Shown: piece by piece, positions 1 to 10,555 of the stretch | How the letters are laid out: each line of letters starts with the position of its first letter | How positions within the stretch are numbered: position 1 is the stretch's first letter | Assembly (NCBI GenBank): GCA_031272035.1 | Contig: JAISUO010000095.1 | Coordinates: 1-48,182, forward strand | From: Synergistaceae bacterium | GTDB taxonomy: Bacteria > Synergistota > Synergistia > Synergistales > Aminobacteriaceae | DNA length: 48,182 nucleotides | Direction: 5' to 3' | Translations under genes and position numbers: made by a program | The notes under the pieces: generated by a model | Seen by the model: only the letters and a program-made list of their open reading frames with translations | Databases searched by the model: none | What the model was told of the DNA's origin: nothing

Positions 1-4
1 ACAT

Positions 5-31
5 GCTCCCTGTTCACGGGAGCTTTTTTTT
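5..31 (+). terminator. Intrinsic terminator of an upstream gene
   Basis: A perfect 6-bp stem (GCTCCC at 5-10, GGGAGC at 18-23) with a 7-nt loop is followed directly by eight T. This is a textbook Rho-independent terminator. It ends a transcript coming from the left, so the GntR gene that follows starts a new unit. Confidence 0.85.
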
Positions 32-49
32 ATGGGAATTTTTTATACA

Positions 50-78
50 TTGACAAATCGGATTATCTGGTGTAGGTT
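50..78 (+). promoter_or_regulatory. Candidate promoter of the GntR regulator gene
   Basis: A perfect TTGACA at 50-55 is followed after 17 nt by a poor -10 (TAGGTT, 73-78). It lies between the terminator at 5-31 and the GntR start at 146. The good -35 and poor -10 leave the assignment uncertain. Confidence 0.4.
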
Positions 79-87
79 GTCAGACAT
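77..87. promoter_or_regulatory. Candidate GntR/FCD operator
   Basis: TTGTCAGACAT contains the perfect inverted repeat TGTC-A-GACA and resembles the TnGT-n3-ACnA type of site bound by FadR-subfamily GntR proteins. It overlaps the candidate -10 at 73-78, where a bound repressor would block RNA polymerase. Autoregulation by the adjacent gene at 146 is an inference. Confidence 0.35.
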
Positions 88-145
88 CAGAGGGTGAATG
101 TATTAGGAATATTTCGATAAAAAATAACGATTAAGGAAAAAACAG

Positions 146-856
146 ATGGAACGTGCCGTATTCGATCCGCTGGAAAGAAAAAATCGCAACGTCATCGTCT
201 GTGAAAGTATCCGTGAAAAAATTCTCTGCGGATTCTGGAAGCCGGGGGAACAAATTTACACGGAAGCTGAACTGATGAAGGCCTTCAACGTCAGTCGTTC
301 TACGATCCGGGAAGCTCTCAACCACCTGAAGGCGGGGAACCTCATCTATACGGTACCGGGGCTGGGAACTTTCGTCTCGGAAAACATCGACTCCCAAAAC
401 CCCATTCCACGACTCGACCTCACCAATATGGAAGATATGCTGCAACTGTTGGATTTCAGAAGAGGGGTGGAGCCGTTTTGCGCGTATCTGGCTTCAAAAA
501 AAATCACCGACGGCGAAATCGACCTGCTTTCCGACTTTATCGCGATTCAGGAAAAATCCGCGGCGGAGGAGTCCGATGAGTTCGAGATGGCGGATATTCG
601 TTTTCACTCGGCTATAGCGGCGTCCACGCGCAACGACCTGTACATCCACACCTTCGAGATGATCCTCGATATTTTCAGGAAACAGCAAAGCCTGTCGGGG
701 TCTTATGAGTGGCGGCGCAACAGAGCGCTGAAATACCACAGACAGCTGATTCGAGCTTTCAAAAAGCGTGATTCGGAACGAGTGGCGCTGGTGATGCAGG
801 AACACATCGAAGACACCCGGAATTACGTTTTTCAGATGTTGGCGGAAAAAGCATAA
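146..856 (+). CDS. GntR family transcriptional regulator, FCD (FadR) subfamily
   Basis: This 236-residue cytoplasmic DNA-binding regulator probably controls the catabolic genes that follow. A winged helix-turn-helix spans about residues 15-78, with the GntR signature around 'SRSTIREALNHL' and the wing 'PGLGTFV'. An all-helical FCD ligand domain covers about 95-232 and keeps the usual metal ligands: D150 and H154 (D-x3-H), H198 and H220. FCD regulators usually bind small organic acids that induce or repress the neighbouring pathway. An AAGGAA site lies just before the ATG. A palindrome at 77-87 may be its own operator. The ligand cannot be read from sequence; the adjacent TTT transporter suggests a carboxylate. 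Confidence 0.92.
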   Translation: MERAVFDPLERKNRNVIVCESIREKILCGFWKPGEQIYTEAELMKAFNVSRSTIREALNHLKAGNLIYTVPGLGTFVSENIDSQNPIPRLDLTNMEDMLQLLDFRRGVEPFCAYLASKKITDGEIDLLSDFIAIQEKSAAEESDEFEMADIRFHSAIAASTRNDLYIHTFEMILDIFRKQQSLSGSYEWRRNRALKYHRQLIRAFKKRDSERVALVMQEHIEDTRNYVFQMLAEKA

Positions 857-871
857 ACAAAATCGTTTTTT

Positions 872-884
872 GTGATGATATCAC
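872..884. promoter_or_regulatory. Perfect inverted repeat before the transketolase genes
   Basis: GTGAT-GAT-ATCAC is a perfect 5-bp inverted repeat with a 3-nt centre. It sits 16 nt after the GntR stop and ends just before the Shine-Dalgarno of the transketolase gene (GGAGGTGAGG, 886-895). It could be an operator or a small hairpin affecting translation; its sequence differs from the candidate operator at 77-87. Confidence 0.3.
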
Positions 885-897
885 TGGAGGTGAGGGT

Positions 898-1734
898 GTG
901 GACAGGGAATTGGTAACTTCGCTGAGCGAAAAGGCGCGGAGTGTGCGCCTGGGGATCATCGACGCTCTCGGCGTTGGTAATCGCGGTCATCTGGGGGGAT
1001 CCATGTCCTGCGCGGACATCGTGGCGGCGCTGTACTTTTACAAAATGCGCCACAGCGCGCAGAAGCAGGACGATCCCAACCGCGACCGGTTCATCATGAG
1101 CAAGGGGCACTCCGTTCTCGCGCAGTACGCCGCGCTGGCGGAGACGGGATATTTCGACAAAAAGATCCTTGGAACCACCAAGACGCTGGGCAGCATTCTT
1201 CAGGGGCATCCCGAGAGAACAACCCCCGGCATCGAGGCAAACACCGGTTCGCTGGGGCAGGGTCTGTCCGTGGGAGTGGGGATGGCCCTCGCCGGAAAAG
1301 CCGACGGGCTCGACTATCATGTTTACGTAATCGTCGGAGACGGCGAGCTGGCGGAAGGACAGATCTGGGAGGCCGCGATGGCGGCGTCTCATTACGGGCT
1401 GGACAACCTGACGGCCATCGTGGACATGAACGGCATCCAGGCCATGGGAAAAACCCGCGACCGCTACGCGATAGGCAACATTCCCGGTCGTTTTGCGGCC
1501 TTCGGCTGGAAAACCTTCGAAATCGACGGGCATGACATGGCGGAGATCGTGGATACGCTGGACAGGGCCGCTGCGGTTCGGGGACTTCCCACGGCTATTG
1601 TGGCCCGAACGGTGAAGGGAAAAGGCGTTGATTTCGCGGAGAACACCCACGCGTACCACAACAATCTCCTGAACGTCGAAGAGCGCGAGAAAGCCATCGC
1701 TTCCGTCATGGCCTCGGCGATGTCGGCGAAGTGA
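898..1734 (+). CDS. Transketolase, N-terminal (TPP-binding) subunit
   Basis: This is the N-terminal half (278 residues) of a split transketolase, which moves a two-carbon ketol unit between sugars using thiamine diphosphate. Visible motifs include 'KGHSVLAQYAALAETGYF', the donor region 'GHPERTTPGIEANTGSLGQG', and the TPP/Mg signature beginning 'GDGELAEGQIWEA' and running to 'DMNGIQ'. A full-length enzyme is about 620-670 residues; here the rest is in the next gene. The GTG start has a strong GGAGGTGAGG site 3 nt upstream. No tal, rpe or rpi is adjacent, and the pair lies between a GntR regulator and a dehydrogenase plus TTT transporter. This suggests a dedicated catabolic transketolase rather than the housekeeping pentose phosphate enzyme. 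Confidence 0.93.
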   Translation: MDRELVTSLSEKARSVRLGIIDALGVGNRGHLGGSMSCADIVAALYFYKMRHSAQKQDDPNRDRFIMSKGHSVLAQYAALAETGYFDKKILGTTKTLGSILQGHPERTTPGIEANTGSLGQGLSVGVGMALAGKADGLDYHVYVIVGDGELAEGQIWEAAMAASHYGLDNLTAIVDMNGIQAMGKTRDRYAIGNIPGRFAAFGWKTFEIDGHDMAEIVDTLDRAAAVRGLPTAIVARTVKGKGVDFAENTHAYHNNLLNVEEREKAIASVMASAMSAK

Positions 1735-1750
1735 AAAAGGAGGAACGGTT

Positions 1751-2686
1751 ATGGAAAAAAATCCTCGTATGGCCTATGGCGCCGCGCTTTTGGAGCTTGC
1801 CGGAAAAGACCGCCGTATCGTGGCTCTCGATGCCGACCTCTGCAATTCCACCCAGTCGGTCCAGATCGAGAAGAATCTGCGGGGGCAGTACTTTGAAATG
1901 GGCATAGGCGAAGCCAACATGATCTGCGCCGCGGCGGGCCTCGCTCTGTGCGGCAAAATTCCCTTTGTCCATTCCTTCGCGGTTTTCGTGGCCGGACGAC
2001 CCTTTGACCAGATCCGTCAGGGCGTTTGCCTGCCCAATCTCAACGTGAAGATTGTCGGTTCCAGCGCCGGACTGTCCGATTTTCCGGACGGCGCGACCCA
2101 CCAGTCCTTTGAAGATATGGCGCTTATGCGGGTGCTGCCCAACATGACCGTCTTTTCTCCGGTGGACGCCGTCGAGGTGCCGAAGGTCGTTCGAGCGGCC
2201 CTCGCCATCGAAGGTCCGGTTTACATTCGTCTGAACCGCAACGACGTGCCCGTTCTGACGGAGGACTCCACGCCCTTCGAGACGGGCAAACCCCTCGTGC
2301 TGGCCGAAGGCGGAGATGTGGCGCTCTGTGCCACGGGGCTCATGACCGATCTGGCCATGAAGGCGCGCGAATCGTTGAATGCGGATGGAATCAGCGCCAG
2401 GGTCGTGAACTTCAGCACCATAAAGCCGCTGGACGCGGAAGCTGTGAAAAAGGCCCTCGCCGGAGTGCGGGCCCTCGTCACGGCGGAGGAACACAGCGTC
2501 ATAGGCGGCCTTGGGGCGGCCCTGTCCGAAACTCTCGCCGAAAATCCGCTTCCCATGAAGCGCGTGGGCATCGCCGATCGTTACGGCCAGTCCGCTCAGG
2601 ATTACGAAATGCTTCTGGAACACTACGGGCTGACGCCTCTGGCCATCGCGAAGGCCGCCAGGGAAATTCTGTCCCGGGGAAAGTAA
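1751..2686 (+). CDS. Transketolase, C-terminal (pyrimidine-binding) subunit
   Basis: This is the C-terminal half (311 residues) of the split transketolase and presumably forms an alpha2-beta2 enzyme with the preceding product. The pyrimidine-binding domain carries 'GIGEANMICAAAGLAL', with the conserved Glu that activates TPP, and 'SFAVFVAGRPFDQIR'. The C-terminal domain (about 185-311) has 'VVNFSTIKPLD' and 'TAEEHSVIGGLG'. The ATG lies 17 nt after the N-subunit stop behind AAAAAGGAGG, so the two are co-translated. Split transketolases are common in anaerobes and appear both in central metabolism and in special sugar pathways; sequence alone does not settle the acceptor sugar. Confidence 0.93.
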   Translation: MEKNPRMAYGAALLELAGKDRRIVALDADLCNSTQSVQIEKNLRGQYFEMGIGEANMICAAAGLALCGKIPFVHSFAVFVAGRPFDQIRQGVCLPNLNVKIVGSSAGLSDFPDGATHQSFEDMALMRVLPNMTVFSPVDAVEVPKVVRAALAIEGPVYIRLNRNDVPVLTEDSTPFETGKPLVLAEGGDVALCATGLMTDLAMKARESLNADGISARVVNFSTIKPLDAEAVKKALAGVRALVTAEEHSVIGGLGAALSETLAENPLPMKRVGIADRYGQSAQDYEMLLEHYGLTPLAIAKAAREILSRGK

Positions 2687-2704
2687 CCTTAAACGATATA
2701 CACA

Positions 2705-2732
2705 CATACAGAACACATACGCATACAGAACA
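2705..2732. repeat. 11-bp direct repeat, 17-bp period
   Basis: CATACAGAACA occurs at 2705-2715 and again at 2722-2732, separated by 6 nt. It lies between the transketolase stop and the Shine-Dalgarno of the next gene. It could be an operator pair or a slippage product. Confidence 0.6.
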
Positions 2733-2749
2733 GAAAAGGAGTTTTGGCG

Positions 2750-3634
2750 ATGAGCAAAATTGGATTTATCGGACTGGGGATCATGGGGAAGCCCATGGCG
2801 AAAAACCTTCTGAAGGCCGGAAAGTCTCTGGTGGTGTTTGACGTGGTGAAAACCGCGCTGGACGAGGTGGTCGCGGCAGGCGCGACAGGCGCGGGGTCTC
2901 CCGCCGAGGTGGCCGCCGCTTCCGACGTCATTGTCACCATGCTGCCGAACTCTCCCCAGGTGCGGGAGGTCGTCTGCGGTGCAAACGGAGTGCTGTCCTC
3001 CCTTCGCAGGGGGCATATTCTGGTGGACATGAGCTCCATCGCGCCTCTGGTGAGCCGCGAGCTCTGCGCCCTTCTGGAGGAAAAGGGCGCCGACATGCTG
3101 GACGCTCCGGTCAGCGGCGGGCAGGAAAAGGCGGAAAAGGGCACCCTCGCCATTATGGTGGGGGGAAAGGAAGAGATCTTTCAGAAGGTGAAGGACGTTC
3201 TGGACGTCATGGGAAAGAGCAACTACGTCGGGGGCAGCGGCGCGGGGCAGATCACGAAGCTGGTCAATCAGACCATTGTCGGAATCAACATCGCGGCGGT
3301 GGCGGAGGGCATGAGCCTGGCCAAAAAAGCCGGCGTCGACCCCGAAAAGGTGTTCAACGCCATCCGCGGAGGGCTTGCGGGCAGCCAGTGCCTTGAGGAC
3401 AAGGCTCCCCGCATGTTCGAGGGCCGCTACAATCCGGGCTTCCGCATCAACCTTCATATTAAAGACTTGGGAAATGTTCAGGAGACGAGCCGGGGCCTGC
3501 ACCTTTCCATGCCTCTGGTGGCTCAGGTCATGGAGATGATGCAAAACCTGGCGGCCGACGGGCATGAAACGCTGGATCACGGTTCTCTGGGGCTGTTCTA
3601 CGAAAAGCTGAATAACATTTCTCTCAAAAAGTGA
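2750..3634 (+). CDS. Beta-hydroxyacid dehydrogenase (3-hydroxyisobutyrate / tartronate semialdehyde reductase family)
   Basis: This 294-residue NAD(P)-dependent enzyme interconverts a beta-hydroxyacid and its semialdehyde. The N-terminal Rossmann motif is 'GFIGLGIMGKPMAKNLLKAG', the substrate loop is 'DAPVSGG' (118-124), and the catalytic region 'GAGQITKLVNQ' carries K170 and N173. It is closest in style to GarR/GlxR and MmsB proteins, but subfamily and substrate cannot be fixed. The ATG at 2750 is preferred because AAAAGGAG ends at 2741, a normal distance; an in-frame TTG at 2744 is too close. It sits between the split transketolase and a TTT transporter, suggesting it handles an intermediate or side product of the same pathway. 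Confidence 0.88.
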   Translation: MSKIGFIGLGIMGKPMAKNLLKAGKSLVVFDVVKTALDEVVAAGATGAGSPAEVAAASDVIVTMLPNSPQVREVVCGANGVLSSLRRGHILVDMSSIAPLVSRELCALLEEKGADMLDAPVSGGQEKAEKGTLAIMVGGKEEIFQKVKDVLDVMGKSNYVGGSGAGQITKLVNQTIVGINIAAVAEGMSLAKKAGVDPEKVFNAIRGGLAGSQCLEDKAPRMFEGRYNPGFRINLHIKDLGNVQETSRGLHLSMPLVAQVMEMMQNLAADGHETLDHGSLGLFYEKLNNISLKK

Positions 3635-3638
3635 GTCA

Positions 3639-3672
3639 GGGGGGAACGGGAGATCTTTATCCCCATCCCCCC
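3639..3672 (+). promoter_or_regulatory. GC-rich hairpin upstream of tctC
   Basis: Six G (3639-3644) face six C (3667-3672), and an inner GGG (3648-3650) can pair with CCCC (3661-3664). No U-run follows, so it is not a classic terminator. A matching hairpin follows tctC; together they may set or stabilise the tctC message. Confidence 0.55.
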
Positions 3673-3696
3673 AAAACCTAAAAGGAGGCGGAATAA

Positions 3697-4761
3697 ATGA
3701 AGAAGTACGGTTTTTGGGTGGCAGTGCTGCTTCTCGTCTTCGTGGCGTCGGGGTCCGCGTTTGCGGCGGACAAGGTATGGGAGAAGGGGACTCCCACGGT
3801 CTACGTCGGGTTCGGAGCCGGCGGCGGGACGGATACGGCGGTTCGTCCCCTGATCGCGCTGATGGAAAAGCGCCTGGGTGAAACCGTCAACGTCGTCAAC
3901 ATGCCGGGGGCGGCCAGCGCCCTCGCCGCGGAGGAAGTTCAGGGCAAGGCTCACGATGGCTACAGCCTTTTTGCCACGGGATCCGGCTGCTTCGGCGGCT
4001 TCCTCATCACCGATACCTCGAAGCAGGGCGTTCCCTGGAACTGGTGGGGCTTCCATCACATTCAGGGTCCGGCGGCTCTGGTTGTGAATCCCGAAAAATC
4101 GGGAATCAATACGGTGGAAGACGCGATCAAAGCCCTGCAGGAAGGTAAGGCCAACGTCGGAGTCTCCTCTCTGGGGGCGGGTATCCACGCTTTCGTCGAG
4201 GCCTTTGCCGGGGCGGCGGGAGTCAAAACGCCCATCAATTACGTCACGTCCGGCGGCGACGGCAAGACCTGCGTCTCCGTCATGGCCGGAGAAATCGAAA
4301 TAGGATCCATTTCCTTCTCGGCCGGTATCGACTACGTTCGTTCCGGCAAGCTGAAGGCCCTCTTCCTCAACCGGAGAGAGCTGCTCAAACTGTCCGACAC
4401 CCTCAGCATTCCCCCCATCACCGACCTGGGGCCCCAGTTCGCCAGCATTCCCGACCTTGCGGAAACCTGGCCCGTCATGATCCCGCGGGACGCCCCGAAG
4501 GCCATTGTGGACAAACTGCAGGAGGCCTTCCTCTGGGCCTGCGCTCAGCCGGAGATGAAGGAATTCGCCGAGAAAATGGGTTATCAGGTCATCACCCGTT
4601 ACGGAGAGGAAGCCGACAAGGTCCTGGATTACCAGTACGCGGCCTACGCCTGGGTGATGTTCGACGCCGGGCTGGCGGACGTTTCCCCGGAAAAGTTCGG
4701 GATTCCGCGCACGGCGGACTGGGACTGGAACAAGGAAAAAGCGAAGTACGGGTACAAATAA
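3697..4761 (+). CDS. tctC: TTT transporter periplasmic substrate-binding protein (TctC/Bug family)
   Basis: This 354-residue extracytoplasmic solute receptor delivers its ligand to the TctA/TctB membrane complex. The signal peptide is clear: charged start 'MKKYGFW', a hydrophobic core, and cleavage after 'SAFA' near residue 23. The mature part begins with the Bug-family motif 'GFGAGGGTDTAVRPL', where glycines and Thr-Asp contact the ligand carboxylate, and has the type II periplasmic-binding fold layout. A strong AAAGGAGG precedes the ATG. Family members bind di- and tricarboxylates, aromatic acids and other small acids. GC-rich hairpins lie on both sides of the gene, a layout that often gives binding proteins higher expression than the permease. 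The ligand is not predictable. Confidence 0.92.
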   Translation: MKKYGFWVAVLLLVFVASGSAFAADKVWEKGTPTVYVGFGAGGGTDTAVRPLIALMEKRLGETVNVVNMPGAASALAAEEVQGKAHDGYSLFATGSGCFGGFLITDTSKQGVPWNWWGFHHIQGPAALVVNPEKSGINTVEDAIKALQEGKANVGVSSLGAGIHAFVEAFAGAAGVKTPINYVTSGGDGKTCVSVMAGEIEIGSISFSAGIDYVRSGKLKALFLNRRELLKLSDTLSIPPITDLGPQFASIPDLAETWPVMIPRDAPKAIVDKLQEAFLWACAQPEMKEFAEKMGYQVITRYGEEADKVLDYQYAAYAWVMFDAGLADVSPEKFGIPRTADWDWNKEKAKYGYK

Positions 4762-4777
4762 ACATGAACTGAAACCC

Positions 4778-4803
4778 GGGGGGCGGGGTGTTTTCCGCTC
4801 CCC
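4778..4803 (+). promoter_or_regulatory. GC-rich hairpin after tctC
   Basis: A 9-bp stem (GGGGGGCGG at 4778-4786, CCGCTCCCC at 4795-4803, one G-U pair) closes an 8-nt loop. No clean T-run follows. Hairpins at this place behind binding-protein genes commonly protect the upstream mRNA and lower read-through into the permease genes. Confidence 0.65.
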
Positions 4804-4831
4804 GTTCTGATTTTGCGAAGGAGGTGTTTTC

Positions 4832-5404
4832 TTGACCGACCTGACCGATCTGTCGCAGGGGCCGACTCCGAAGAGCGGGGTTCCGGACGCGGGCGGCGAA
4901 CCCTCTGGGACCGGCGGAAAAAAACGTACAGCGGGCAGACTGGCCGGAGCGGACTTCATCACGGCGGTTCTGCTCATTGTTTTTGGGGCGGTATTTTTTG
5001 CGGGGGCGGCGGGAATGCGGGTGTACCGAACGATTCTCGTTTCTCCCGGCTTTTTCCCGATGATTCTGGGGATTCTCTTTATCGTCTTCGGCCTGGTTCT
5101 CATGTATTCTTCGTCACGGCGGAGAGGTCGGGCTGATGCCCGCCGCATCCTTTCGGGGGGCAATCTCAAAAGGGGCTTCACTTCTCCCGTGTTCAAAAAA
5201 GGCGGCATCGTTTTTTTGCTGATTCTCGGCTACGTGGCTCTTTTGGGGAAAATCAGTTTTGTATATCTGAGCATGGCGTATCTTTTTCTCACGTTCTTTT
5301 TTCTGAAGGCGGCAAAATGGTACTGGATTCTCATCATTTCCGCGGTTGCCCCCATCATCGTCCAGATCGTTTTCAGCCACGTTTTCAGGATTCCCATGCC
5401 ATAG
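4832..5404 (+). CDS. tctB: TTT transporter small membrane subunit (TctB family)
   Basis: This 190-residue membrane protein is the small permease partner of TctA. It has a polar Gly/Pro-rich N-terminus of about 45 residues, then hydrophobic helices near 48-70, 75-95, 128-147 and 150-188, matching the usual four-helix TctB plan. The TTG start is chosen because AAGGAGGTG ends 5 nt before it and no better in-frame start is near. TctB is poorly conserved in sequence and is recognised here mainly by size, topology and its place between tctC and tctA. The extended cytoplasmic N-terminus is somewhat longer than usual. Confidence 0.85.
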   Translation: MTDLTDLSQGPTPKSGVPDAGGEPSGTGGKKRTAGRLAGADFITAVLLIVFGAVFFAGAAGMRVYRTILVSPGFFPMILGILFIVFGLVLMYSSSRRRGRADARRILSGGNLKRGFTSPVFKKGGIVFLLILGYVALLGKISFVYLSMAYLFLTFFFLKAAKWYWILIISAVAPIIVQIVFSHVFRIPMP

Positions 5405-5418
5405 GGAGGCGGGACGAT

Positions 5419-6936
5419 ATGGAGTACTTCCGGCACATCACGAGCATGTTCTCCGCCATGGCGCGGGATCCCTGGATCATCGCGCTGATTTTCGGCGGTT
5501 CCATCATGGGGCTTCTCGTGGGGGTCATTCCCGGTCTGACCGCCACCATGGCCCTGGCTCTTTTGATCAATATTTCCTACGGAATGCCTCTGGAACGGGC
5601 GGTGGCCTTTCTGCTGAGCGTTTACGTGGGAGCCACGTCAGGGGGTCTGTGTTCCGCCATCATGATCAACATTCCCGGGACTCCGGCTGCGGCGGCCACG
5701 GCTCTCGACGGCTTTCCCCTGGCCAAACAGGGCAGGGGAGGACTGGCCATCGGGACGGGCTTCATCGCTTCTTTTGTCGGTACGGTTTTCAGTATTCTCG
5801 TCATGCTTCTGCTCACCCCGATCCTCTACCTCATCGCCATGAAGTTCGGACACTGGGAAATGTTTCTTCTGGCGCTCTTTGGCATCATGATCTGCGGTTC
5901 CCTCAGCACGGACAAGGACCCCATCAAGGGCTGGATCGTGGGATTTCTTGGATTTGCCCTGTCCATGGTGGGAATGGAGGAGATCTTCGCCTTTCCCCGT
6001 TTCACCTTCGGCAACCTGCAGCTCAAGGGCGGCATTCCCCTGATCGCCACGCTGATCGGTGTGTTCGGCATTTCGGAGGTGCTGGGCGTCCTTCAGGAAA
6101 GCGTGCCCTACCGGATAGAGGGCAAAGTGGGGCGCGTCATCCCTCCCCTGGGGGTGTTCAAATCGCTCATCCCTTCTATTTTACGCTCCGGCGTCATCGG
6201 CGTCATCATCGGCATCATCCCCGGCGCGGGGGAGGACGTGGGCTCGTGGCTCGCCTACGACATGGGGAAGCGGCGGTCGAAGGACGGAGATAAATTCGGA
6301 ACCGGAATTTTGGAGGGGGTGGTCTGTCCGGAGGTGGCCAACAACGCGGTTATCGGCGGAGCCATGATTCCCCTTCTGACCCTGGCCGTTCCGGGGAGCC
6401 CCCCCGCCGCCATGTTCCTGGCCGCCATGAACCTCCACGGAGTGCGGCCGGGTCCCATGCTCAACATCGAAAATCCGGCCTTCCTTCCGATGGTGGGGGC
6501 CTCGCTGATGTGCGCCTCCCTGGCCATGCTTTTCTGGGGTCTGCTGCTGGCCAAGCCGATGGTGGGCGTCCTCAAGGTCAAGCGCGAGATTCTTCTGCCG
6601 CTGGTGGTCCCTCTGACGGTGATCGGCGCTTACGGCGGCGGAGTACGCATTTTCGACGTCTATCTGATGCTTTTTGCCGGAATGATCGGTTATTTTCTCC
6701 GTCAGATGGATTATCCCCTTGCGCCGCTGGTGCTGGGGCTCATTCTGGGGCCTCTGGCCGACGTGAGTTTCCGGCAGGCCCTCATGCAGAGCCGGGGAAT
6801 GATTCTGCCCCTTCTTCAGCGCCCTCTGGGGCTGATCCTCATGGCGTCCGTGGCGTGGCTGATCTGGAGCGGCGTTGTCCGCGCCCTGGCCTATTACAGA
6901 AAAATGGATCAGGAAATTGCGATTGGAGATGAATGA
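5419..6936 (+). CDS. tctA: TTT transporter large permease subunit (TctA family)
   Basis: This is the ion-coupled transport subunit of the TTT system, 505 residues with about 11-12 membrane segments. The family's two internal-repeat signatures are visible: 'GVIPGLTATMALALLINISYG' near the start and 'GIIPGAGEDVGSWLAYDMGK' in the second half, the latter probably lining the substrate/cation site. The ATG at 5419 follows tctB by 14 nt with GGGAGG at 5404-5409. The reading frame stays open upstream, but that stretch overlaps tctB and lacks membrane character. With tctC and tctB this completes the transporter, which uses an ion gradient rather than ATP. Confidence 0.95.
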   Translation: MEYFRHITSMFSAMARDPWIIALIFGGSIMGLLVGVIPGLTATMALALLINISYGMPLERAVAFLLSVYVGATSGGLCSAIMINIPGTPAAAATALDGFPLAKQGRGGLAIGTGFIASFVGTVFSILVMLLLTPILYLIAMKFGHWEMFLLALFGIMICGSLSTDKDPIKGWIVGFLGFALSMVGMEEIFAFPRFTFGNLQLKGGIPLIATLIGVFGISEVLGVLQESVPYRIEGKVGRVIPPLGVFKSLIPSILRSGVIGVIIGIIPGAGEDVGSWLAYDMGKRRSKDGDKFGTGILEGVVCPEVANNAVIGGAMIPLLTLAVPGSPPAAMFLAAMNLHGVRPGPMLNIENPAFLPMVGASLMCASLAMLFWGLLLAKPMVGVLKVKREILLPLVVPLTVIGAYGGGVRIFDVYLMLFAGMIGYFLRQMDYPLAPLVLGLILGPLADVSFRQALMQSRGMILPLLQRPLGLILMASVAWLIWSGVVRALAYYRKMDQEIAIGDE

Positions 6937-6948
6937 GGAGTGAGTGAT

Positions 6949-7767
6949 TTGACGGATTCTATTGGCGGGTATCTTGAAACGGTCTTTTCTCTGAAGGATA
7001 AAATCATCCTTTTTACAGGGGCCACGGGCGGTATTGGAAGCGTTCTGTGCAGGGGGTACGCGAAGGCCGGCGCGACGGTGGCGCTCTGCGACGTGGACCT
7101 CGGCAGACTGGCGGAGCTGGAAAAGGAAATCCGCGAGTCGGGCGGGGAGGCGTCTTCTTTCAGGCTCGACCTGACCCATCAGGGAGACATCGCGGACTGC
7201 GTGAATCAGGTGATTCGCAAATACGGAAGAATCGACGTTCTGTTCAACTGCGCGGGCATCAACAAACGCGAGGGGATCCTGGACGTGGACGAAAGCACCT
7301 ATGACCGCATCATGCAGATCAACCTGAAGGGGCTTTATTTCATTTCCCAGGAAGTGGCAAAGCACATGAGGACGGCGGGAAAAGGCAACATCATCAATAT
7401 GGCGTCCCATAACTCCGTGGGGATGCTGGGCGGCTGCAGCGTCTACGGCGCCACGAAGAGCGCTGTCACCGCCCTGACCCGATCCATGGCGGTGGAATGG
7501 GCGAAGTTTGGAATACGCGCCAACGCCATCGCTCCGGGCCATATTCTCACCCCTCTGACCACCGTGACCTGGGAGCATCCGACACGAAGCGCCTACCTGA
7601 AGGACCGGATCGCCATGCAGCGCCCGGGAGACCCGGAAGAAATCCTTGGAATTGCCATTCTTCTGGCTTCGGATGCCTCCAGTTACATGTCGGGAATGAT
7701 GGTTCACGTGGACGGTGGATGCCTTGCCGGCGGAACACCCTGGGACTTCGACACGCAATTTAAATGA
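6949..7767 (+). CDS. Short-chain dehydrogenase/reductase (classical SDR)
   Basis: This 272-residue NAD(P)-dependent oxidoreductase belongs to the group that includes gluconate 5-dehydrogenase-like and 2-deoxygluconate 3-dehydrogenase-like enzymes. It shows the cofactor motif 'TGATGGIG', 'NCAGI', the catalytic Ser in 'NMASHNS', and Tyr-x3-Lys in 'SVYGATKSAV'. The TTG at 6949 is preferred because GAGGAG (6935-6940) lies 8 nt before it; an in-frame GTG at 6940 overlaps that site. It closely follows tctA, so it is probably part of the same operon and oxidises or reduces a hydroxyl or keto group of the imported compound. The exact substrate is unknown. Confidence 0.9.
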   Translation: MTDSIGGYLETVFSLKDKIILFTGATGGIGSVLCRGYAKAGATVALCDVDLGRLAELEKEIRESGGEASSFRLDLTHQGDIADCVNQVIRKYGRIDVLFNCAGINKREGILDVDESTYDRIMQINLKGLYFISQEVAKHMRTAGKGNIINMASHNSVGMLGGCSVYGATKSAVTALTRSMAVEWAKFGIRANAIAPGHILTPLTTVTWEHPTRSAYLKDRIAMQRPGDPEEILGIAILLASDASSYMSGMMVHVDGGCLAGGTPWDFDTQFK

Positions 7768-7803
7768 AAATCTGGATGAAAATCTGAAGAAAATCTAAAA
7801 TCT
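7764..7803. repeat. Short tandem repeat across the SDR stop codon
   Basis: ATGAAAATCTGG (7764-7775) and ATGAAAATCTGA (7776-7787) are 12-bp tandem copies, followed by shortened AGAAAATCTA and AAATCT copies. The array includes the TGA stop of the dehydrogenase (7765-7767). The core GAAAATCT appears three times and AAAATCT once more. Confidence 0.6.
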
Positions 7804-7871
7804 ATCTGAGTAAATTCCGTCGAAAAGGCCTGCCGCTTTTTTGAAATAGCTTTTTTTCGTAGAATTTCTTC

Positions 7872-7880
7872 TGTTATAAT
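7872..7880 (+). promoter_or_regulatory. Extended -10 promoter of the nitroreductase gene
   Basis: TGTTATAAT gives a perfect TATAAT (7875-7880) with the TG extension (7872-7873). No good -35 lies at the right distance, only a T-rich tract. It sits in the 185-nt gap before the gene at 7953 and would give a leader of about 65 nt. Confidence 0.55.
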
Positions 7881-7952
7881 TTCGTTGTAATCTGTAGCTG
7901 AAGGAATTGAGTATCTGAACAGATTGGAAATTAAATACCTGGAGGAGCAGTA

Positions 7953-8552
7953 ATGGGCGGAAGTATCGAAAAAGTTGTGCAGGACAGACGGTCATGGTAT
8001 GCCATCAACGATCAGTCTCCGGTTACAGACGAGCAGATCCGTGGAATCGTCGATTTTGCTCTGCTGCACGTCCCGTCGGCCTTCAACTCGCAGTCGACGC
8101 GTCTCGTGCTTTTGCTGAAGGAGCATCATAAAAAATTCTGGGACATTGTCATGAATGCGTTGAGAGCCGTGGTTCCCCCGGAGAAATTCGCCCCTTCGGA
8201 GCAGAAAATCAACTCTTTCGCGGCGGGGTACGGGACGATTTTGTACTACGAAGATCAAAAAGTGGTGGAGGACCTGCAGAGTCGTTTTCCCGGCTACGCG
8301 AAAAACTTCCCCGCCTGGTCTCAGCAGACTTCCGCCATGCACCAGATCGTGATCTGGATGATGTTGGAAGACGCGGGACTGGGGGCGTCTCTGCAGCATT
8401 ACAATCCTCTTGTGGACGAGGAGACGCGTCGGGTCTGGTCTCTGGATCCCGCCTGGACTCTGGTGGGGCAGATGCCCTTTGGCGGCAGAGTGAAAGCTCC
8501 GGACGCGAAGGAATTTCACTCTCCGGACGAACGAAGAAAGTTTTTCGGGTAA
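7953..8552 (+). CDS. Nitroreductase family protein
   Basis: This 199-residue cytoplasmic flavoprotein probably binds FMN and reduces substrates with NAD(P)H. The FMN-phosphate region 'VQDRRSWYAI' lies near the N-terminus, followed by 'HVPSAFNSQSTRLVLL', typical of the nitroreductase subgroup related to yeast Frm2/Hbn1. A second conserved block 'QQTSAMHQIVIWMMLEDAGLGASLQHYNP' region covers about residues 125-153. The ATG follows CTGGAGGAGCAGTA closely. An extended -10 promoter lies upstream, so it need not belong to the preceding catabolic operon. A 14-bp tandem repeat spans its stop codon. The physiological substrate is unknown; the subgroup has been linked to lipid or oxidative stress responses in yeast. 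Confidence 0.88.
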   Translation: MGGSIEKVVQDRRSWYAINDQSPVTDEQIRGIVDFALLHVPSAFNSQSTRLVLLLKEHHKKFWDIVMNALRAVVPPEKFAPSEQKINSFAAGYGTILYYEDQKVVEDLQSRFPGYAKNFPAWSQQTSAMHQIVIWMMLEDAGLGASLQHYNPLVDEETRRVWSLDPAWTLVGQMPFGGRVKAPDAKEFHSPDERRKFFG

Positions 8553-8568
8553 AATTTTTCGAGTAAAA
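8541..8568. repeat. 14-bp tandem repeat spanning the nitroreductase stop codon
   Basis: TTTTTCGGGTAAAA (8541-8554) is followed directly by TTTTTCGAGTAAAA (8555-8568), one mismatch. The first copy contains the end of the gene, Phe-Gly-stop. The second lies in the untranslated tail. Confidence 0.75.
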
Positions 8569-8722
8569 ATAAAATATAAATAAAAACGCCAATGCTGTCA
8601 GCGTGGGGAGAGGCTTTACGGTCTTTCCTCGCATTAACACAATATTCTGAATACGGTTCATGCCGTGAGGTGAGGTCTGAACAAGGTTTTTTACGCGGAC
8701 GGTAAAGTGGGAGGATAGTTGA
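8569..8722. other. Intergenic gap before the histidine kinase
   Basis: An A-rich stretch follows the nitroreductase stop, then mixed sequence. No clear terminator, TATAAT promoter or tRNA was seen. GGGAGGA at 8709-8715 is the ribosome site for the next gene. Confidence 0.5.
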
Positions 8723-10555
8723 GTGAAACGATCGCCTCTTTCTCTGTTTCGGGGCAGGGTATTTTTGTTACTCTTTTTGTGCATCAATGTGCCCTGTTTT
8801 GCCACATGGTACGTGGTGAAGCATGTCATGGAAGGGACGCTTTTGCAGGAAAAGGAAGCAAACCTGATGACGCTGGCCAGGGTGCTGAATTCACGTCTGG
8901 ATGAGGGCGGTTATTCGGCGATCCTGGAGGCGGCGGGGGCGGAATCCGCCGACCGTGCGGAGCAGATAAGAGTGCTGAACCAGGCTCTGGAGAAGGCCAC
9001 AGACGACGTGGCCCTCAGTTCTCCGGGACTGGGAGTGGGGTTTTACTCGCGGAACCTGGACGCCATCCTCACCTATGGTCCGTCGGCTGAGTTTTCGCAG
9101 ATGGTGGGGCGATCCATTGCCCCGGATCACGGCGGCCGGGTGGTCATGGCCACCAACGTGCCGAAGGTCGCGATGGGAACCATGGTGCGGGGAAACATCC
9201 TGAACGCGATGTTCCCCGTGGAGCGAAGGGGCGAGGTCATCGGTTACATCTGGGCCAATGAGCTTGTCACGGACATCGTGCTCCATTTCAGAAAGATCAG
9301 TCGCAACGTTTTCATCATCGTGGGGCTGGCCTATATCCTGATGGTCATTCTCGTCATCATGATTTTCAAAAGAACCGTATTCCTGGAGCATAAGGCCCTG
9401 CTCATGGCGGAGGCCGCGAATACCTCCCAGAAAGAGTTTCTGGCGCGCATGAGTCACGAGATCCGCACGCCGATGAACGGAGTGCTGGGCATGACGCATC
9501 TGGCGCTTCAGGCTTCCCCTCCTCCGGAACAAAAAGCCTATTTGAAAAAAATAGAGTCTTCCGCTTCATTGTTGCTGGGGGTCATCAACGACATTCTGGA
9601 TTTTTCCAAAATCGAGGCGGGCCGTCTTGTTCTGGAGAAACGCCCCTTCTGCGTTCGGGAAATGGCGGAGAACATCCGGGATCTGATCCTGCCCCGGGCC
9701 GTGGAAAAGAACCTGGAACTGGAGGTTTTTCTGGAGGACTCCGTTCCGGAATACGCCATAGGGGATGAACTGCGCCTTTCGCAGGTTTTGCTCAATTTGC
9801 TGGGCAATGCGGTAAAATTTACCAACAGCGGGTCCATTGTTCTGACCATGGGTTGCGAGATTCTGTCCTCGGGGCGTCTGAGGCTCGACTGTTCCGTTCG
9901 GGACTCCGGCATCGGAATGACGCAGGAGCAGCAGAAAATGCTTTTCACGCCCTTCACTCAGGCAGATAATTCCATCGCGCGAAAATTCGGCGGAACCGGT
10001 TTGGGCCTTTCCATCAGCCGGACGCTGGTGCAGCTCATGGGCGGGCATATTGGCGTGGAGAGCGAACCGGGCAGGGGAAGCACCTTTTTCTTTTCCGTGG
10101 AGCTGGAGCCTGGCGTTCCGAAAACGGAAGAAGACGCTTCGGACGCGGGAAAAGGCTCCGTTTCGGAGGACGGGGATTATACAGGACATCGTTTCCTGCT
10201 GGTGGAGGACAACGTCATCAATCAGGAGATAGCCGTCGCGGTTCTTTCCGAACTTGGAGCCGAGATCGACGTCGCCGATAATGGAGAAGAAGGGCTGAAT
10301 GCGTTTTTGCAAAGGGATTACTCGCTGATTTTCATGGATCTTCAGATGCCGGTCATGGACGGGCTGGAGGCCACGAGACGCATTCGTGCCTCCGGTCGTC
10401 CCAACGCGGCGACGATTCCCATTGTTGCCATGACGGCCAGCGCGATGGTGGAGGATCGGGAGGCGACCCTGAAGGCGGGGATGAATGGGCACGTCACCAA
10501 ACCCCTCGACATTCGGGAACTCAAAAAAACCGTCCGTCGCCTGCTGGAGACGTAA
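8723..10555 (+). CDS. Membrane hybrid sensor histidine kinase with receiver domain
   Basis: This 610-residue two-component sensor has two membrane helices (about 11-30 and 196-216) enclosing a periplasmic sensor region of about 165 residues that I do not recognise. The dimerisation domain has the phospho-accepting H245 in 'MSHEIRTPMNG'. The ATPase domain has the N-box around N362, 'DSGIGM' and 'GGTGLGLS'. The C-terminal receiver (about 488-608) carries D539 in 'FMDLQMP' and K593. No HAMP or Hpt domain is visible, so a separate Hpt protein and output regulator are needed for a full phosphorelay. The GTG start has GGGAGGA 7 nt upstream. It stands alone between the catabolic and flagellar regions; a link to motility is possible but unproven. 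Confidence 0.93.
   Translation: MKRSPLSLFRGRVFLLLFLCINVPCFATWYVVKHVMEGTLLQEKEANLMTLARVLNSRLDEGGYSAILEAAGAESADRAEQIRVLNQALEKATDDVALSSPGLGVGFYSRNLDAILTYGPSAEFSQMVGRSIAPDHGGRVVMATNVPKVAMGTMVRGNILNAMFPVERRGEVIGYIWANELVTDIVLHFRKISRNVFIIVGLAYILMVILVIMIFKRTVFLEHKALLMAEAANTSQKEFLARMSHEIRTPMNGVLGMTHLALQASPPPEQKAYLKKIESSASLLLGVINDILDFSKIEAGRLVLEKRPFCVREMAENIRDLILPRAVEKNLELEVFLEDSVPEYAIGDELRLSQVLLNLLGNAVKFTNSGSIVLTMGCEILSSGRLRLDCSVRDSGIGMTQEQQKMLFTPFTQADNSIARKFGGTGLGLSISRTLVQLMGGHIGVESEPGRGSTFFFSVELEPGVPKTEEDASDAGKGSVSEDGDYTGHRFLLVEDNVINQEIAVAVLSELGAEIDVADNGEEGLNAFLQRDYSLIFMDLQMPVMDGLEATRRIRASGRPNAATIPIVAMTASAMVEDREATLKAGMNGHVTKPLDIRELKKTVRRLLET

Follow-up and report, generated by a model that had tools for sequence, protein, structure and literature searches.

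Within the 48,182-nucleotide stretch of Synergistaceae DNA analysed here (the window), positions 146–7767 form a single co-directional operon of eight genes, as defined by ORFs and Pfam/NCBIfam matches, and this operon probably, if only just, encodes the import of a sugar acid, most likely a C5 aldonate, and its kinase-free cleavage by ketol transfer. From the gene families, the conservation of gene neighbourhoods, an active-site motif and a candidate operator, all of which are observed, we infer every reaction, the substrate and the regulation. The original prediction had proposed import of a hydroxylated acid and two-carbon transfer from it; comparison across genomes supports this, and the linkage to a GarR-type reductase, the motif and the transporters sharpen it.

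The gene order is GntR–TKA–TKB–GarR-type reductase–TctC–TctB–TctA–SDR, with all genes, like every other feature given below, on the + strand and all cited Pfam matches above curated cut-offs. The block had been described as a regulator, a split transketolase, a dehydrogenase, a TTT transporter and an SDR without a sugar kinase, isomerase or transaldolase, and this description is confirmed: by Pfam, none of these three, nor an aldolase, occurs among the eight genes. The window starts at a contig end. A strong terminator-like hairpin with a T run, ascribed to the preceding gene (5–23), is the probable 5′ boundary and suggests that, despite the contig end, the operon starts at the GntR gene, and a weak terminator-like hairpin with three G-C pairs (7820–7844) is a possible 3′ boundary; either hairpin could be due to chance, because the scan of positions 1–9000 returned 17 terminator-like sites versus 9.6 in shuffled sequences.

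The first gene (146–856) encodes a GntR/FadR-type regulator with a GntR winged helix (Pfam, 3.3e-15) and an FCD domain (1.1e-22), probably an acid-responsive repressor of its own operon. Upstream of it lies a proposed promoter/operator (50–88) composed of a −35 element, TTGACA (50–55), and a TGTC-N-GACA inverted repeat (TTGTCAGACATC; 77–88) that overlaps the −10/start region; this promoter is absent from the list given by a simple promoter scan, and its −10 is poor. In all 16 loci examined, TTGAC upstream of the GntR gene is followed 27–29 nt downstream by the repeat—the chance expectation for such repeats being about 0.03 per 280 nt—and the repeat is likely the GntR operator, through which the regulator would repress the operon by binding over the −10 region. 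This conserved layout, together with recurrence of the gene set in related Synergistaceae, places the grouping of the genes beyond chance. The window's genome holds two exact operator sites, namely the operon promoter and one on contig C84, and a search of that genome for a regulon, allowing at most one mismatch, gave no clear excess (20 + 29 sites versus 14 + 22 for the reversed pattern).

TKA (898–1734; Transketolase_N, 8.6e-51) is the N-terminal, ThDP-binding half of a split transketolase, and TKB (1751–2686; Transket_pyr and Transketolase_C) is the pyrimidine-binding and C-terminal half, with the split-chain transketolase of Carboxydothermus as the nearest solved sequence for both (6yak for TKA, 6yaj/6yak for TKB). 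Equivalents of H26, H66, H100, H261, R358, S385, D469, H473, and R520 are kept in TKA/TKB. The head-group motif of TKB is R6-S33-F76-S105-R163 (RSFSR), which differs from both the phosphate-type (RSFHR) and the sulfo-transketolase (RAFDR) motifs, S105 being the equivalent of H461; the E468 equivalent is Pro in TKB and Gly in 75/80 rows of the clade. RSFSR is found in 71 of these 80 rows, a serine count that is partly by construction since the clade was gathered partly by the motif GSS[AC]GLSDF, and in 17/17 Synergistaceae relatives gathered by whole-protein similarity; residues at the H461 position were located by ungapped counting back from D469. In a quick-method tree of 117 rows, with the motif columns dropped and the Synergistaceae orthologues already present through the relatives search omitted except for three, the label needs two changes, and the odd row is taken to be the second transketolase of L085 with the motif RSFYR. 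A PADLOC scan of TKB gave no match.

According to PMC12016104, the E. coli transketolase variant R358I/H461S/R520Q cleaves 5-keto-gluconate to tartaric semialdehyde, with an activity reported to be only 55.3% higher; the other two changes, R358I and R520Q, are not shared by the clade. By analogy, the serine at the H461 position is suggestive, though not proof, of a keto-aldonate donor. That the enzyme is instead an ordinary pentose-phosphate transketolase lying by chance in a mixed operon would fit the conserved ThDP-site histidines of TKA and the R358, S385, D469, and R520 equivalents of TKB, but is very improbable given the catabolic linkage conserved across phyla; it was set aside on the altered head-group residues and on the five Transketolase_N matches that the window's genome contains besides TKA. 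With six such matches in total, the operon enzyme is not the sole transketolase of its genome. A special pathway had been called unlikely if homologues of the pair were always the only transketolase and sat in standard pentose phosphate settings; neither is the case, since at most loci of this type the neighbours include a GarR, dehydrogenase, or acid-transporter gene instead.

The next gene (2750–3634; NAD_binding_2/NAD_binding_11) had been called a beta-hydroxyacid dehydrogenase, and the family assignment stands while the function can be narrowed: by equivalog score, it classifies as a tartronate semialdehyde (2-hydroxy-3-oxopropionate) reductase. It exceeds the cut-offs of two NCBIfam equivalogs, PRK11559 (410.6 bits over 397) and TIGR01505 (372.3 over 340.75), and its nearest PDB entry is 1vpd (330 bits), with 149 bits for the 3-sulfolactaldehyde reductase 6sm7. 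Furthermore, at E ≤ 5e-102, a threshold near the TIGR01505 cut-off of 340.75 bits, PRK11559 is matched by 55/55 and TIGR01505 by 54/55 of the clade GarR proteins, and no other NCBIfam model, including that for threonate dehydrogenase, is matched by any of the 55 (alignment A2 combines 54 of these clustered proteins with the window reductase and omits L141). Given this assignment, the two dehydrogenases of the operon most likely work as a pair, one oxidising before the transketolase step and the other reducing after it. The same scores bear on a sulfonate route of the sulfo-transketolase type, in which the substrate would be a sulfosugar and the reductase a sulfolactaldehyde reductase. Such a route would fit a split transketolase whose head-group site is altered, and the superfamily of the reductase is also that of 3-sulfolactaldehyde reductase, but the reductase reaches only 193 bits against the cut-off of 348 for the sulfolactaldehyde reductase model, the motif is not RAFDR, and an isomerase was not found in the block by the Pfam scan; with both the motif and the reductase tests failing, this reading was set aside as very improbable.

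TctC, the periplasmic solute-binding protein (3697–4761; 1e-19), TctB, the small membrane subunit (4832–5404; 8.9e-17), and TctA, the large membrane subunit (about 5419–6936; 1.1e-129, scanned from 5410, with the start placed at the ATG of MEYFRHIT), are adjacent and all exceed their Pfam cut-offs, making a complete TTT transporter; the nearest PDB entries to TctC are Bug27 and other TctC-type proteins. A GC-rich 12-bp hairpin in the tctC/tctB gap (4777–4804; hairpin scan and sequence) may keep the membrane-subunit genes transcribed at a lower level than tctC. The last gene (6940–7767; adh_short_C2, 1.7e-59) encodes an SDR dehydrogenase; among the solved structures closest to it are several with gluconate or hexonate dehydrogenase names, such as 4ibo, 1vl8, 5u9p, and 4g81. 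Among the 25 of 232 families listed, it lies above no equivalog cut-off; it is barely above one subfamily model, glucose 1-dehydrogenase PRK07231 (216.1 over 215), and below the gluconate 5-dehydrogenase equivalogs PRK08085 (196 vs 408) and PRK07097 (183.5 vs 369). Its proposed role is to oxidise the aldonate, once imported, at the penultimate carbon.

Gene neighbourhoods were compared between the best 80 of 244 transketolase relatives, from nine named phyla, and 20 + 10 control loci of other transketolases of the same order, some of them on short contigs and including loci of the window's genome. Fifteen of the 80 clade loci are from Synergistota, most of them on the same contigs as the loci of the genome survey below; L140 and L141 come from a single record and are almost identical, and the TKB of L122 was located by tblastn after the choice of ORFs had missed it. 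GarR (>150 bits) lies within 6 kb of the transketolase in 56/80 clade loci versus 0/30 controls, and in 36/46 versus 0/21 when the count is restricted to loci flanked by 3 kb or more on each side; since 10/46 well-flanked loci have no strong GarR nearby, part of the clade may serve another role. An SDR or MDR is near the transketolase in 56/80 clade and 4/30 control loci. TTT, TRAP, and GntP transporters occur in 18, 9, and 9 of the 80 clade loci (0, 2, and 0 of the 30 controls), and are counted as supporting an acid substrate. Between clade loci, both the transporter (TTT, TRAP, or GntP) and the dehydrogenase (SDR or zinc MDR) interchange. Among 81 Synergistaceae genomes, a GarR sharing 69% identity or more is present in 17/18 genomes with this transketolase and 1/63 without it, the identity lines of 65% (transketolase) and 69% (GarR; next GarR, 56%) having been set after gaps were seen in the lists; in one genome (G086) the GarR is on a different contig from the transketolase, yet is retained. 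GarR-like genes as such are common, with a match at E ≤ 1e-40 in 69/81 family genomes.

Glycerate kinases of two unrelated families, representatives of which were confirmed by Pfam, are within 6 kb of the transketolase in 10/80 clade loci versus 1/30 controls, in the order GK–TKA–TKB in L081, L092, and L102 and TKA–TKB–GarR–GK in L101. That only 10 of the 80 clade loci have such a kinase nearby is a point against the pathway. The window's genome encodes a DUF4147 (MOFRL-type) glycerate kinase outside the operon, which is not specific because 75/81 family genomes have one (the GarK type is present in 1/81); glycerate kinase thus failed as a discriminating marker within Synergistaceae.

In the proposed pathway, TctABC would import an aldonate, most likely C5, and the SDR would oxidise its penultimate hydroxyl to give a 4-keto-pentonate (HOCH2-CO-CHOH-CHOH-COOH) and a reduced cofactor. 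The split transketolase would then transfer the ketol unit of the 4-keto-pentonate to glyceraldehyde 3-phosphate, yielding xylulose 5-phosphate and tartronate semialdehyde, which the GarR-type reductase would convert to glycerate, consuming the reducing equivalent from the SDR, and a glycerate kinase—encoded elsewhere in the window's genome and beside the module in some others—would produce phosphoglycerate. All five carbons would be retained, redox could balance inside the operon, and one ATP would be spent last. If the transketolase keeps its normal face selectivity, a D configuration at C3 is required, leaving D-ribonate, L-lyxonate, D-arabinonate, or L-xylonate; D-ribonate and L-lyxonate, both giving D-glycerate, would match the stereochemistry best. 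L-lyxonate is a breakdown product of vitamin C. Glycosidase and uronate neighbours vary (GH51, GH43, GH4, GH88, UxuA) and single out no pentonate. Where a locus has both dehydrogenases, two acids that are epimers at C4 could be converted to a single keto acid.

A C6 acid is a possible though unlikely substrate: from an aldonate/ketouronate (e.g., L-galactonate/D-tagaturonate or gluconate/5-keto-gluconate), the transketolase would produce xylulose 5-phosphate and a tetruronate, which the GarR-like enzyme would reduce to a tetronate. The 5-keto-gluconate cleavage of the E. coli triple variant (PMC12016104) and the resemblance of the SDR to gluconate/hexonate dehydrogenases are in keeping with this, as are uronate or sugar-acid type genes adjoining L131, L124, and L113. 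In L121, moreover, genes for a DUF1537 kinase and a PdxA homologue come after SDR–TKA–TKB–GarR; the NCBIfam models they match, below the cut-offs, include those for D-threonate kinase and D-threonate 4-phosphate dehydrogenase, and the two genes point to a four-carbon acid; however, such genes occur in 1/100 loci searched, the GarR proteins match tartronate semialdehyde reductase and not threonate dehydrogenase models at the threshold used, and the glycerate kinases beside the module would be left without a role. Among 10 clade-bearing genomes searched, UxaC was not found in three and UxuA was not found in two, and hexuronates were set aside as a general substrate. Treponema parvum (L091), which is dependent on uronic acids, is undecisive, its genome having ordinary UxaC and UxuA.

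A C3 route is improbable. Here, an acid would be oxidised to hydroxypyruvate/tartronate semialdehyde, hydroxypyruvate would serve as the transketolase donor with release of CO2, and GarR would balance the pool. An AP_endonuc_2-type TIM-barrel gene, a fold that hydroxypyruvate isomerase also has, lies near L093 (Pfam) and L137 (homology), but these are 2/100 loci searched, and the route offers no clear job for the conserved SDR or zinc MDR and leaves the GntP transporters unexplained. Hydroxypyruvate is reported to be an accepted transketolase donor that renders the reaction irreversible (PMC3657141).

Beyond the window, the chances are about even that the pentonate reading describes a widespread bacterial pathway, in which a natural transketolase of a third head-group class (RSFSR) cleaves a non-phosphorylated keto-aldonate and pentonates are converted to xylulose 5-phosphate and glycerate with no kinase acting early and no dehydratase or aldolase involved, and that modular versions with swappable transporters and SDR/zinc dehydrogenases exist in at least eight phyla. 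If so, this would be a sugar-acid route with no carbon loss spread over many phyla, and would account for recurring gene sets of transketolase, 2-hydroxy-3-oxopropionate reductase, and dehydrogenase. Transketolases that act naturally on keto sugar acids would then also be available, whereas until now this activity has been improved by engineering (PMC12016104). Searches of the open-access literature found no paper on the gene set or on a natural keto-aldonate transketolase pathway.

Among known systems, the sulfo-transketolase pathway for sulfoquinovose (SqwGH) likewise relies on a split transketolase, with a non-phosphorylated anionic ketose as ketol donor and glyceraldehyde 3-phosphate as acceptor, and its clostridial form has a reductase that deals with the leftover aldehyde (PMC9594981). 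The operon differs in its RSFSR motif, in entry through a dehydrogenase rather than an isomerase, in having GarR instead of a metal-dependent ADH and acid-type transporters, and in the lack of an isomerase for a second cleavage. By Pfam, the eight genes include no sulfosugar or sulfoerythrose isomerase and no sulfoacetaldehyde reductase or dehydrogenase; the original prediction that the apiose and sulfoquinovose enzymes are missing holds for the block. The apulose-4-phosphate transketolase route of apiose also applies a split transketolase to an unusual sugar, and needs a kinase and a phosphorylated donor; it was set aside since no kinase is found by Pfam in 146–7767. The glucarate/galactarate and glyoxylate pathways end, as proposed here, in GarR/GlxR and glycerate kinase (tartronate semialdehyde to glycerate to phosphoglycerate), and obtain tartronate semialdehyde from the aldolase GarL or glyoxylate carboligase, whereas the sole C-C cleaving enzyme of the operon is the transketolase. 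The Carboxydothermus hydrogenoformans enzyme (6yaj/6yak) shares the two-chain architecture, but has His at the S105 position in the alignment and is reported to carry the phosphate-type RSFHR motif (PMC11659671). Finally, keto-aldonate cleavage by a transketolase has parallels in the engineered E. coli TktA R358I/H461S/R520Q, with the same serine at the H461 position (PMC12016104), and in a proposed plant tartrate step, debated as the missing step of grape tartaric acid synthesis (PMC11066805, PMC12016104). Unlike the laboratory mutant or the unproven plant step, the transketolases described here form a natural, GarR-linked clade that keeps both head-group arginines.

Open reading frames and Pfam and NCBIfam matches bear out the co-directional block of the original prediction, with eight same-strand genes within 146–7767 encoding a GntR/FCD regulator, a transketolase split into two halves (TKA and TKB), a beta-hydroxyacid dehydrogenase (GarR), a complete tripartite tricarboxylate transporter (TTT; subunits TctC, TctB, and TctA), and a short-chain dehydrogenase (SDR). 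The window is one entire contig of a 3.18-Mb genome assembled in 122 contigs. Terminator-like hairpins lie at 5–23 and, more weakly, at 7820–7844, and a strong, GC-rich hairpin in the tctC–tctB gap (4777–4804) perhaps sets a high TctC:TctAB ratio; terminator-like sites numbered 17 in window positions 1–9000, versus 9.6 in shuffled sequences. The genes 3′ of the operon, for a nitroreductase and a hybrid histidine kinase (Pfam) as well as flagellar genes recognized by eye, were counted outside it.

GarR exceeded both NCBIfam cut-offs for tartronate semialdehyde reductase (410.6 versus 397, and 372.3 versus 340.75), and its closest solved relative is such a reductase (1vpd). At E ≤ 5e-102, approximately the TIGR01505 cut-off, PRK11559 was matched by all 55 GarR proteins (the window's and 54 relatives) and TIGR01505 by 54, with no other NCBIfam model matched among the 55. 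The operon's GarR scored below the cut-offs for threonate dehydrogenase (214.8; cut-off 350) and sulfolactaldehyde reductase (193; cut-off 348). The closest matches of the SDR among solved structures are gluconate/hexonate dehydrogenases; it exceeded none of the equivalog cut-offs in the 25 NCBIfam families shown out of 232, and barely passed the subfamily model for glucose 1-dehydrogenase (216.1 versus 215). The solved relatives of TctC are all distant. By chemical reasoning, a transketolase yielding tartronate semialdehyde must start from HOCH2-CO-CHOH-CHOH-COOH, a 4-keto-pentonate, which the SDR would form from a C5 aldonate.

When 180 genomes from the order were searched, 18, including the window's, had TKB at ≥65% identity. 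The window's closest named relatives are Synergistaceae MAGs. Where the contig is long enough, the order TKA–TKB–GarR–TctC–TctB–TctA–dehydrogenase is maintained in Synergistaceae, with variants. A zinc-dependent alcohol dehydrogenase (best NCBIfam model L-threonine 3-dehydrogenase, below cut-off) replaces the SDR after tctA in genomes G020, G021, G024, G036, and G037; a TRAP transporter and a further zinc-dependent alcohol dehydrogenase are inserted between the GntR gene and TKA in G020 and G036; an additional open frame separates tctC and tctB in G095; and the G086 operon is without the reductase, a 78% identical copy being located on a different contig. A named relative (L068; transketolase 74% identical) has GarR, SDR, and MDR, with genes resembling an ABC transporter replacing TTT. 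A rearranged SDR–GarR–TKB–TKA–SDR–TctABC locus adjoining a transaldolase/FSA-family gene was also observed in another Synergistaceae genome (L054:7245-16042; G063:C280). Among the 81 genomes of the family, GarR at ≥69% identity was present in 17 of the 18 bearing the transketolase versus 1 of the 63 lacking it (Fisher p = 2.5e-15, indicative only, given the relatedness of the genomes and because the two identity thresholds, 65% for the transketolase and 69% for GarR, were set after the gaps had been seen). In the sole exception, G092, the contig stops just after the transketolase gene. Weaker GarR-like genes are frequent, with matches at E ≤ 1e-40 in 69 of the 81.

Scanning a genome collection (84,980 species per the tool description) with the TKB alignment gave 244 relatives, the best 80 of which were retained as a clade: Bacillota 28, Synergistota 15, Spirochaetota 12, Planctomycetota 10, Bacteroidota 5, Pseudomonadota 5, Acidobacteriota 2, and Atribacterota, Chloroflexota, and an unknown phylum 1 each. 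GarR lies within 6 kb of the transketolase at 56 of these best 80 loci versus 0 of 30 controls (20 + 10 other transketolase loci from the same order); when 3 kb of flank was required on each side, the counts were 36/46 versus 0/21, a strong GarR being missing from 10 of the 46. Eight of the nine named phyla among the best 80 have at least one locus with GarR nearby, the exception being Atribacterota. The locus from that phylum (L085) carries two tandem TKA–TKB pairs, one of which belongs to another motif class (RSFYR), adjoining genes that by eye resemble acetoin/pyruvate dehydrogenase. An SDR or zinc MDR is near the transketolase at 56/80 clade loci versus 4/30 controls (SDR alone 33, MDR alone 19, both 4, neither 24 of the 80). 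TTT, TRAP, and GntP transporters were found at 18, 9, and 9 of the 80 versus 0, 2, and 0 of the 30, the DctM and GntP domains having been confirmed on one representative each, and genes resembling ABC systems were seen by eye at some other clade loci. With the motif columns removed, a tree of 117 rows required two changes of the clade label, versus a mean of 28.8 in 500 shuffles, none as low.

By comparison with human transketolase and E. coli TktA, the head-group residues of TKB were located as R6, S33, F76, S105, and R163, equivalent to E. coli R358, S385, F434, H461, and R520. RSFHR is reported for phosphate-using transketolases and RAFDR for sulfo-transketolase (PMC11659671). RSFSR occurs in the window, in 17/17 Synergistaceae relatives (≥51% identity; gathered by whole-protein similarity), and in 71/80 clade rows, the remainder being RTFSR (5), RGFSR (3), and RSFYR (1); the clade was partly gathered with a motif containing the serine, which makes its constancy across the 80 in part a product of selection. 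Non-clade rows have RSFHR, RSYHR, RSFYR, and others, with RAFDR in one control; serine at the H461 position also occurs in two control rows and one paralogue, all without the last Arg. E468, which in E. coli is reported to form a salt bridge to R520 (PMC3657141), is replaced by Gly in 75/80 clade rows. TktA R358I/H461S/R520Q is reported to cleave 5-keto-gluconate (PMC12016104); because the reported gain is 55.3%, the serine is a suggestive hint at a keto-acid donor rather than decisive.

A special pathway had been considered unlikely if such a pair were always the sole transketolase, in a pentose phosphate setting. This does not apply here, because the genome has six Transketolase_N matches, and GarR and TTT are absent around the other five as far as the contigs extend; a 33% SDR is near one of these. 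Elsewhere in Synergistaceae, a split transketolase with the sulfo-transketolase motif RAFDR lies close to a contig end (L156:7145-9006; G089:C30), and another, 50% identical and with His at the H461 position (L055:6961-11033; G086:C38), is flanked by genes that by eye are FGGY sugar kinase-like and DeoC-like.

Natural transketolase donors have the 3S configuration, which for 4-keto-pentonate would correspond to D at acid C3, and therefore to D-ribonate, L-lyxonate, D-arabinonate, or L-xylonate. Of these four, only D-ribonate and L-lyxonate would lead to D-tartronate semialdehyde and so to D-glycerate, which is the form used by GarR and glycerate kinases. D-xylonate and L-arabinonate would require the opposite transketolase face and are less likely, although GH51 and GH43 genes adjoining a few loci lend them some plausibility. 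Vitamin C breakdown is reported to yield L-lyxonate and L-xylonate (PMC11066805). A C6 version of the pathway with a C4 product is suggested by L121:3030-5352, where genes for a DUF1537 kinase and a PdxA homologue come after TKA–TKB–GarR, as that version would need, but this gene pair was found at 1 of the 100 loci searched. The chain length is not settled by the uronate genes at L131 or by the sugar-acid or pectin-type genes at L124 and L113. A hexuronate route fed by an isomerase is unlikely as the general role because searches of 10 genomes bearing the clade did not find UxaC in 3 and UxuA in 2. The window's genome contains a second possible sugar-acid locus of three genes in a row (G000:C77:6183-10558, equivalent to L150:6183-10558), encoding a glyoxylate-carboligase/acetolactate-synthase-like enzyme (508 bits, below the 711 cut-off), a beta-hydroxyacid dehydrogenase 37% identical to GarR of the operon, and a dehydratase of the IlvD/Edd type.

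With respect to the glycerate expected from the C5 pathway, a glycerate kinase lies within 6 kb of the transketolase at 10/80 clade loci versus 1/30 controls, and the ten belong to two unrelated families (DUF4147/MOFRL 7, GarK type 3). The gene order is GarK-type kinase–TKA–TKB in the Planctomycetota loci L081, L092, and L102 and TKA–TKB–GarR–kinase in L101; in the Pseudomonadota loci L103, L116, and L126, the kinase is divergent and adjoins TKA. Searches of the window's genome found a gene for a DUF4147 kinase (contig C11), a type present in 75 of the 81 family genomes, and no GarK-type kinase.

Upstream of the GntR gene, all 16 Synergistaceae loci examined (the window and 15 others) have a TTGAC −35 element followed 27–29 nt on by a TGTC-N-GACA repeat (one TATC and one GACG variant) that overlaps the −10 region and is expected by background about 0.03 times per 280 nt; the window's promoter was not reported by a simple promoter scan. 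The repeat is a candidate operator, and the layout fits FadR-type autorepression that would be lifted by a pathway acid. The genome has just one further exact match to TTGTCNGACATC (G000:C84:3132-3143), which could be a second regulator target.

Judged from sequence, the operon belongs to a widespread module comprising an acid importer, a proposed penultimate-carbon dehydrogenase, an RSFSR transketolase, and a tartronate semialdehyde reductase. An ordinary explanation for the operon was not found, nor was a description of such a module in the open-access papers searched. Compared with the sulfo-transketolase pathway, the module of the window would work similarly, yet is not a member of that pathway.
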